In this document: positions 25,582 through 27,128 of the stretch, one piece after another
Layout: each line of letters starts with the position of its first letter
Position numbering within the stretch: the stretch's first letter is position 1
Assembly: GCF_900111825.1 (NCBI RefSeq)
Contig: NZ_FOJM01000008.1
Coordinates: 62,001-126,000 of the forward strand
Source of the DNA: Pedobacter suwonensis
Lineage (GTDB): Bacteria; Bacteroidota; Bacteroidia; Sphingobacteriales; Sphingobacteriaceae
Length of the DNA stretch: 64,000 bases
Direction: 5' to 3'
Position numbers and translations under genes: made by a program
Notes under the pieces: generated by a model
What the model was told of the DNA's origin: nothing
The model's input: only the letters and a program-made list of their open reading frames with translations
Databases searched by the model: none

Positions 25582-25859
25582 CATTTTAATGGTGCTGTTT
25601 CATAGATATAGATTGTCATCCAGAAGAATAAGTTATTGTATAAAAAATATAAATGACATTAGCATTAATGGGAATAAACCTCTCCGCAATGACGACTTTT
25701 TAGGGAGTCTGTCAATGATAGCCTGTCGAAGAAACTGTTAAATGTCATGCAAAAGCGTTTCGGCAAGCTCGAAGTAACAAGTTCGAATGGAATCACAACT
25801 TATGGTACAGCCTATTGTGTTTTTAGAATTCCGTAAAATGAATGAATAGCCTCTGCCTC
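25582..25859. other. Intergenic stretch with decayed repeat fragments
   Basis: No gene is supported between the secG terminator and the kinase promoter. Pieces resemble the dispersed intergenic repeat seen at 35873-35957, for example CGCAATGACG near 25686, and a phrase around CAAGCTCGAAGTAACAAG near 25770. These look like remnants of intergenic palindromes rather than coding sequence. Confidence 0.5.
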
Positions 25860-25877
25860 TTAACACACATTTAACAT
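25860..25877 (+). promoter_or_regulatory. Candidate Pho box before the PhoR-like kinase
   Basis: TTAACA occurs at 25860-25865 and 25871-25876, direct repeats one helical turn (11 bp) apart. This is the geometry of the PhoP/PhoB box (B. subtilis consensus TT-A/T/C-A-C/T-A with about 5-bp spacing). A weak -7-like TAAATTG lies at 25887-25893, 5 bp before the start codon, so the actual transcription start is unclear. The same arrangement precedes the phosphate-transport genes. Confidence 0.5.
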
Positions 25878-25897
25878 AAAAAGCTTTAAATTGCCGC

Positions 25898-26923
25898 ATG
25901 AAATTAAGTGTGCTGGTTTTATTTACTGCGCTTGCTGTAGGCCTTTCTATAGGAATGGTTAATTTTTACTTTCAGCATAGCCTGTATTATATGGCCATTT
26001 CTTTTGGCGTATCGTTTTTGTGTAGTTTTTTAGTTTTTTATTATCTGCTGGAGAAATACATTTACACTAAAATTAAACTCATCTACAAACTAATCCATAA
26101 CCTTAAACTGGGCAAAGATTTAAAAGATGCGCTTGGTGAGTATGTGAGTTCCGATCCGATTAATGATGTAGAGCAGGAAGTAAAGGAATGGGCAGGCGCA
26201 AAGAAAAAAGAAATCGATTTATTAAAAAAACAAGAGCAGTTTAGAAGAGAGTTTCTTTCGAATGTTTCGCATGAGTTTAAAACCCCGCTTTTTGCCATTC
26301 AAGGTTATATCGAAACTTTACAGGATTGCCTTGTAGATGATCCCGATCAGGCCGTTTTATTTCTGAAGAAAGCAGAGAACAATGTAGAAAGATTGAGTTA
26401 TCTGATTAATGATCTGGATGTTATTTCAAAGCTGGAAACGGGAGAGTCGCCAATTAACTTCCAAAAATTCGATTTTGTACAACTGGCGAAAGAGGTAATG
26501 GAAAACCTTGAAGACCGTGCCAAAGCAAAAAAAATTAAACTGTTTTTTAAAGAAAAGTATACTGCCATCACACCGGTTTCTGCTGACCGCGAGAAGATCA
26601 GGCAGGTGTTGATTAACTTAATGGTCAATAGCATTAAGTATGGTATTGATGGAGGTGAAACCGCCATTAAAATTTTCGAGCTGCATGACCAGGTTTTGAT
26701 CGAAGTAACCGATAATGGTATTGGTATAGAAGAAAAACACCTATCGCGCCTGTTTGAACGTTTTTACCGCATTGATACCCACCGGGCGAGAGAAGTTGGC
26801 GGTACCGGTTTAGGTCTGGCTATTGTAAAACATATTTTGGAAGCTCACCAACAAACCATTTCGGTGAGAAGTACGCCAGGTATTGGAACCACCTTTGCCT
26901 TTACATTACAAAAGGGCGGGTAG
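25898..26923 (+). CDS. PhoR-like sensor histidine kinase
   Basis: The 341-residue protein has two closely spaced N-terminal membrane helices (about 3-20 and 31-50) with almost no periplasmic loop, a short linker, H-box [17 protein letters not shown] (H125), and a HATPase with G1 DNGIGI and G2 GGTGLGLAI. The minimal sensor region resembles PhoR-type kinases that take their signal from membrane or transport partners. It sits 224 bp upstream of the DUF47-PiT phosphate genes, and both carry matching candidate Pho boxes. No response regulator is adjacent, so its partner is elsewhere. Confidence 0.88.
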
Positions 26924-26982
26924 ATTTAGCATCCTTTTATTTCGATAACTGATGATAGAGGGGCAAAATGCGCATGTAATAG

Positions 26983-27027
26983 CTCGCTGATGGCTTAAAT
27001 GTTGTTTAATTATTCATGATCAGCGAG
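26983..27027 (+). other. Hairpin after the PhoR-like kinase
   Basis: CTCGCTGAT (26983-26991) and ATCAGCGAG (27019-27027) form a perfect 9-bp stem with a 27-nt loop. No T-run follows, so it may be a weak terminator or an mRNA-stabilising structure. Confidence 0.4.
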
Positions 27028-27094
27028 TTAAAAGCTACACAAACAAGCTACCTCGGCAGAAACAATGTTGTAATTCGTTAATATAATTAATAAA

Positions 27095-27128
27095 TTAACA
27101 TTAACTTAACATTGGGCTTGTAGCTTTG
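27095..27128 (+). promoter_or_regulatory. Candidate Pho box and promoter before DUF47-PiT
   Basis: Direct repeats TTAACAT at 27095-27101 and 27106-27112 (11-bp period) end 8 bp before TAGCTTTG (27121-27128), a full -7 match. The repeats occupy the -33 region, as expected for an activator that replaces -33 contacts. The start codon is 20 bp beyond the -7 element. Confidence 0.55.

Follow-up and report, generated by a model that had tools for sequence, protein, structure and literature searches.

Within a 64-kb stretch of the Pedobacter suwonensis genome (hereafter the window), a direct repeat of TTAACA at 27095 precedes the genes for a DUF47 protein and a PiT phosphate transporter (Table 1). 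By its geometry and its place this element is of the PHO-box kind, a predicted operator. We propose that it serves a PhoB-family response regulator, most likely the one encoded at G000:C40:22801-23487 (L131), that the histidine kinase encoded at 25898 is the kinase of that regulator, and that activation occurs at low phosphate. We put the probability of this proposal as a whole at roughly 75%. A second copy of the repeat precedes the kinase gene, and a single phosphate-starvation system, lacking the usual sensing parts, probably controls both DUF47-PiT and the kinase.

We infer that phosphate shortage would lead the phosphorylated regulator to bind the two 11-bp units head-to-tail, where a -33 element would lie. 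Once bound, it would bring polymerase to TAGCTTTG and the level of DUF47-PiT would rise. Kinase levels would be raised in the same manner through the weaker copy at 25860.

Table 1. Coordinates of the elements and genes discussed (positions of the window unless a locus is named).
Feature	Position	Strand	Remarks
Box before the kinase, TTAACA-N5-TTAACA, TTAACACACATTTAACA	25860..25876	+	Exact; conserved only within the genus
Weak -7-like 8-mer, TTAAATTG	25886..25893	+	9 bp downstream of the kinase box
PhoR/PnpS-like histidine kinase, 341 aa	25898..26923	+	HisKA + HATPase_c; two hydrophobic stretches
Box before DUF47-PiT, TTAACATTAACTTAACA	27095..27111	+	Exact; footprint across relatives
-7 element, TAGCTTTG	27121..27128	+	9 bp downstream of the DUF47 box
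DUF47 (PhoU_div) protein, 213 aa	27148..27789	+	Pfam PF01865, 83.6 bits (cut-off 24.4)
PiT phosphate transporter, 336 aa	27802..28812	+	Pfam PF01384, 301 bits (cut-off 33.7)
Candidate sRNA copy	L435:574-654 (near G000:C21:232739)		One-mismatch box
Candidate sRNA copy	L436:627-706 (near G000:C39:177992)		One-mismatch box

The box in the window and in the genome

Exact TTAACA-N5-TTAACA occurred only at the two tabulated sites when both strands of the window were searched, and each repeat was co-oriented with the gene downstream. The preliminary description had reported two such direct repeats with an 11-bp period, and this was borne out: both were exact, while dinucleotide-preserving shuffles of the window contained 0.055 exact boxes on average and two boxes in none of 200. 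Promoters of Bacteroidota have a -7 element with the consensus TAnnTTTG. The 8-mer behind the DUF47 box matches this consensus in full; the element stands as first described, and its distance from the second half-site, given as 8 bp, is corrected to 9 bp (27112-27120). Two mismatches to the consensus separate TTAAATTG from it, so that the kinase site is without a full -7 element. At both sites the geometry is, as claimed, that of the Pho box, which the available text of a review defines as a pair of 11-nt direct repeats in which seven positions per unit are conserved and four less so (PMC4415409).

We counted the motif in the 5.8-Mb P. suwonensis genome (99.96% complete, with the window on contig C23) by pattern search, using the reversed motif as control. 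Exact boxes numbered 13. With at most one mismatch, there were 138 boxes (67 + 71) versus 73 (35 + 38) for the reversed motif; the bare motif is thus about two-fold enriched, yet not rare. Reading the downstream genes revealed a plain phosphate link behind three of the 13 exact sites: the kinase, DUF47-PiT, and a polyphosphate kinase gene identified by Pfam (PP_kinase_N), which lies 73 bp downstream of its box (L010; G000:C27:94564-94580, minus strand). The other ten lacked such a link, one of them (L007) lying inside a gene. A mismatch-free box followed after 9 bp by a -7 element was found once in the genome, upstream of DUF47; allowing up to three mismatches, this arrangement occurred 57 times versus 23 for the reversed form. 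The preliminary description would be refuted by a motif as common before unrelated genes as before phosphate genes; for the bare box this is partly so, ten of its 13 exact sites lying elsewhere. The same is not true of the box combined with a -7 element.

Conservation upstream of DUF47-PiT

The DUF47 and PiT genes are adjacent, and their products scored above the Pfam cut-offs; the DUF47 protein fell below the separate TIGR00153 cut-off (62.1 vs 104.3). An uncultured Pedobacter encodes a protein 100% identical to it, and the homologues in several named species of the genus are 99% identical. Across 30 loci of the family, the box and -7 element were mostly kept while the flanks had diverged, which argues that the 27095 box is more than chance.

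The 250 bp upstream of DUF47 were searched, with the reversed motif and shuffles as controls. The exact box was present at all 20 loci of the genus, at 14 of 16 loci from other genera of Sphingobacteriaceae, and at 22 of 60 from other families of the class, these 60 coming, for the most part, from the better-scoring of 113 genomes outside the family that had a DUF47 match. With one mismatch allowed, the last figure rose to 37 of 60, leaving 23 loci without a box. The reversed motif gave no exact match and, at up to one mismatch, 0, 0, and 2 matches in the three groups; shuffled upstream regions contained at most 0.04 exact boxes on average. At 80 named DUF47 loci, mostly from Pedobacter and including some genomes already in the other counts, the box was exact in 75 and within one mismatch in 79, and a -7 element with 0 or 1 mismatch lay 9 bp from it in 77.

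A composite pattern (box, 7-12 bp, TAnnTTTG) was then searched in 151 family genomes. Among the matches listed there were 139 composites, 111 of them upstream of DUF47, corresponding to 111 of the 141 listed genomes with a DUF47 entry. The reversed composite had no match in the 151 genomes. In other families (L195-L216, L274-L313), the -7 element lay mostly 19-20 bp from the DUF47 box: this spacing was seen in 16 of the 28 other-family boxes with a -7 element at up to one mismatch, and 9 bp in one. Relative to Sphingobacteriaceae, the shift is about one 11-bp unit. The repeat unit over 37 outgroup boxes was (C)TTAACATTRNC. These data suggest a sequence rule for phosphate-starvation promoters in Bacteroidota, namely TTAACATTRNC twice with TAnnTTTG 9 or ~20 bp further on.

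The same box before pst operons

Sphingobacteriaceae genomes that have Pst offered a second set of phosphate genes. We searched 300 bp upstream of each operon on the operon's strand, with first genes picked by eye, and counted 18 loci after leaving out 2 of 20 that ended at contig ends. The box was exact at seven and within one mismatch at 11, versus a background of 8 in 1272 windows. At the same stringency, the reversed motif was absent from this strand at all 18 loci and occurred at one of them on the opposite strand. Seven loci had no box within one mismatch on the operon's strand, and six had a box on the other strand, one of which (L155) is the box of a neighboring DUF47 gene; in that genome (G077) one cluster holds the kinase, the pst operon, the box, DUF47, and PiT. 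Two pst loci (L153, L156) have three half-sites in register.

The box is commoner before genes for phosphate acquisition (DUF47, pst) than elsewhere, though ten of the 13 exact P. suwonensis sites lie elsewhere. Because it also precedes the pst operons of relatives, naming this predicted operator a Pho box is well supported. The main point of the preliminary description, a shared Pho-box-type operator before DUF47-PiT, is supported by the footprint, the pst boxes, and the composite counts; the remainder of that interpretation is plausible.

The kinase and its box

A membrane anchor is followed in the kinase by HisKA and HATPase_c domains, a PhoR-type architecture. Pfam gave only these two domains, and no sensor domain was found. 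Its scores lie below the curated PhoR/PnpS cut-offs (TIGR02966, 235/334.2; NF046044, 257/400; NF053855, 170/500). For NF053855, the Bacteroidota PhoR model, no P. suwonensis kinase exceeded the cut-off, and the highest score among 54 was that of the window kinase. The gene lies directly upstream of DUF47 in 126 of 140 family genomes, at distances of 65-634 bp where the two are adjacent.

The kinase box looks like a genus-level feature. Among 20 genus loci it was exact in eight; allowing one mismatch raised the count to 14, and allowing two, to 17. Its half-sites were kept while the 5-bp spacers varied. At ten loci of other genera it was never exact and was within one mismatch once. Just 5' of the box, the stretch 25610-25850 is very different among close relatives (L061-L065), with the box kept, and may hold an intergenic repeat insertion.

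Autoregulation of the kinase, predicted in the preliminary description, is consistent with the counts within the genus and at odds with those from other genera. A table in the portion available of a Flavobacterium johnsoniae study lists, as unlabelled figures, 0.76 with 0.056 for phoR and 3.06 with 9e-20 for phoB (PMC8115612), which weakens the case for kinase autoregulation. It is possible, if doubtful, that the DUF47 box works alone, the kinase box being decayed or fortuitous and the kinase not autoregulated: the incomplete -7 at 25886 and the exact matches in only 8 of 20 genus loci and none elsewhere would fit this, while half-sites kept across differing spacers, 14 of 20 genus boxes within one mismatch, and the full -7 element 9 bp from the kinase box of a genus relative (L075) argue for a working kinase box.

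Phosphate sensing and the direction of control

Canonical Pst-PhoU signaling, with PstA and PhoU present, was not found in the genus. Of 151 family genomes, 43 had a PstA match above the cut-off, whereas the 20 genomes of the genus had none. Among 60 genomes of the genus, one contained PhoU: G468, whose assembly has about 500 contigs and which is not P. suwonensis. Nine family genomes had no DUF47 match; six of these (G007, G017, G023, G024, G032, and G039) had PstA-type matches with E values of 1e-50 or better, and the other three were 76-83% complete. The system around the box is a variant, with a split kinase-regulator pair, a kinase in which no sensor domain was found, and no Pst-PhoU.

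With no Pst, nearly no PhoU, and such a kinase, DUF47-PiT might itself supply the phosphate signal. Our tentative proposal, plausible rather than probable, is that in Pst-free Bacteroidota DUF47 and PiT replaced Pst-PhoU as phosphate sensor for a sensorless PhoR-like kinase, and that the regulon also drives a family of small RNAs through the box, 9 bp, and TAnnTTTG. If true, it would account for the move of the kinase away from its regulator to a place directly before DUF47. The locus also makes it a testable question how a PhoR-type kinase senses phosphate without Pst and PhoU.

The same element could be a PhoB operator from which PhoB, once bound, represses DUF47-PiT under low phosphate. Such control is reported, in the text available, for Sinorhizobium meliloti, where Pi starvation represses orfA-pit and the Pho box lies near the start codon (PMC3131613). 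Here the DUF47 start lies 53 bp downstream of its box. We consider repression unlikely. It would cut the importer at low Pi, since DUF47-PiT stands without Pst in the genus, and the 9 bp fixed between box and -7 element at 77 of 80 named loci is what an activator would need. In Bacteroides fragilis, as far as the accessible text goes, deletion of phoB showed pst, polyphosphate kinase, and a 'phosphate/sulphate permease' to be PhoB-dependent, phoR and phoB were more than 10-fold up at low Pi, and PhoB binds the pstC promoter (PMC3547664). These results favor activation over repression of the orfA-pit type.

A probable split kinase-regulator pair

The window kinase has no PhoB-type regulator adjacent in P. 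suwonensis. The best PhoB-like regulator of the genome, L131, has receiver and winged-helix output domains, no adjacent kinase, and pseudouridine-synthase-like and thioredoxin-like neighbors (named by eye). Its two best NCBIfam models are both PhoB, and it falls below the curated PhoB cut-offs (TIGR02154, 226.6/296.2; NF053854, 219.7/270). As both proteins miss curated cut-offs, we do not class them as members of PhoR and PhoB; they may act like them.

Among the matches listed, 70 of 85 genomes from outside the family have their best matches for the window kinase and for L131 side by side on one strand, with the regulator first. Searched back against six P. suwonensis kinases and ten regulators, these matches agreed in 19 of 20 cases each, counting L235 (with a stop within the match) and L260 as misses. 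We therefore rejected the kinase as a true orphan in favor of a split pair; orphan, the term of the preliminary description, applies to its position alone. The order thioredoxin-like gene, regulator, kinase recurs in other families (L314, L315, L323) and in two other genera of Sphingobacteriaceae (G004 and G007; L324, L326), which suggests that the L131 site is the same place, there occupied by the kinase. Gene clusters from other families, with names assigned by eye, run box-DUF47-PiT-regulator-kinase (L316), pst-box-DUF47-PiT-regulator (L317), and porin-like gene, box, DUF47, PiT, kinase (L321, L322). The analysis thereby names the likely partner in a split two-component system, and the best reading is of a Pho regulon in which the PhoR-like kinase has relocated next to DUF47-PiT.

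Another OmpR-family regulator, WalR- or RprY-like and unconnected with phosphate, might bind the box instead. WalK also gives the kinase a good score (228 bits), and the regulator matches YycF at 202 bits and RprY at 148 bits; many box sites precede genes without a phosphate link. Given that the box sits before pst operons and DUF47-PiT and that PhoB models rank top for the regulator, we judge this improbable. Chance matches in AT-rich DNA, which 13 exact boxes in the genome and 73 reversed-motif sites might suggest, are very improbable as the source of the boxes in view of the shuffles and the footprints across relatives, and for the 27095 box the footprint refutes chance, an argument that does not extend to single other sites.

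On balance, a PhoB operator is favored by the DUF47 footprint, the pst boxes, the 11-bp period with its TTAACAT core, the adjacency in 70 of 85 genomes, the PhoB models that rank best for L131, and the B. fragilis data. Against it stand the curated cut-offs missed by kinase and L131, the pst loci that are boxless or have a box on the other strand, the ten exact boxes elsewhere, the 23 boxless other-family DUF47 loci, and the lack of an exact kinase box outside the genus.

Other genes behind the box and a candidate small RNA

Beyond DUF47, a one-mismatch composite in P. suwonensis (L164) lies upstream of a HAD-type hydrolase gene. Across the family, 28 composites were not before DUF47, of which 27 were read (G150:C131 was left out). 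Six of these lay before a candidate sRNA and six before a conserved leader; TonB-receptor-like genes followed six, sigma-factor-like genes three, phosphoesterases identified by Pfam two, a YncE-like protein with only a weak Pfam match one, and others the remaining three. Receptor and sigma labels were assigned by eye. The TonB-receptor-like genes behind box and -7 element (L409, L410, L411, L413, L421, L433) come from several family genomes, three of the six being one gene in three relatives. They recall the low-Pi-induced receptors that the available text reports for Flavobacterium (PMC8115612).

The candidate sRNA, ~80 nt long, was found in eight copies in seven Pedobacter genomes, each behind box, 9 bp, and TAnnTTTG; two are in P. 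suwonensis (Table 1) and the others in relatives (L418, L420, L423, L426, L427, L429). Its layout comprises a hairpin whose loop region contains TTTGGTTAG, sequence common to the copies near GTTTAGGTTAG, and an intrinsic terminator. Five terminator pairs had changed on both sides, and no pair of the first hairpin had done so. A second conserved composite, with 11 bp from box to -7 element, precedes a conserved leader without a long ORF (L434; G000:C21:114825-114860, minus strand; relatives L419, L422, L425, L428, L430), and a GAF-type sensor gene lies ~0.5 kb downstream in L434 and L430. In Rfam, nine loci with the candidate sRNA or this second site gave no match above the gathering score; the match of lowest E value was RefA9 on L434 (41.3 of 49 bits, E 0.003). 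We found no Pedobacter small RNA tied to phosphate starvation in the open-licence literature.

Comparison with known systems

The open-licence literature has PhoB studies from Bacteroidota; in the portions of it available, we found no box sequence for the phylum. Nor did it yield TTAACA linked to PhoP or a Pho box, or a Bacteroidetes Pho-box reconstruction. The predicted operator resembles the PHO box of PhoB/PhoP, as far as the text available describes it, in its 11-nt direct repeats and its place before phosphate-uptake genes (PMC4415409). It differs in its core, TTAACAT here versus CTGTCAT in Escherichia coli, and in being placed against the Bacteroidota -7 element, at 9 bp in Sphingobacteriaceae and mostly 19-20 bp in other families.

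The PhoR-PhoB pair of B. fragilis is also from Bacteroidota, and the PhoB-dependent set given in the accessible text includes pst and polyphosphate kinase genes and a phosphate/sulphate permease (PMC3547664). There, phoR and phoB have consecutive locus numbers and Pst is present, whereas in P. suwonensis the kinase and regulator genes lie at separate places and there is no Pst. At 583 positions, the Bacteroidota PhoR model is also longer than the kinase, with its 341 aa. The S. meliloti orfA-pit, as described in the available text, is likewise a PiT-type operon with a Pho box, set apart by its repression on Pi starvation and by a box just upstream of the start codon (PMC3131613). F. johnsoniae, by the available part of its report, offers a Pho regulon from the same phylum in strains described as lacking PstSABC, as here; its phoBR genes form one operon, whereas kinase and regulator lie apart in P. 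suwonensis (PMC8115612).
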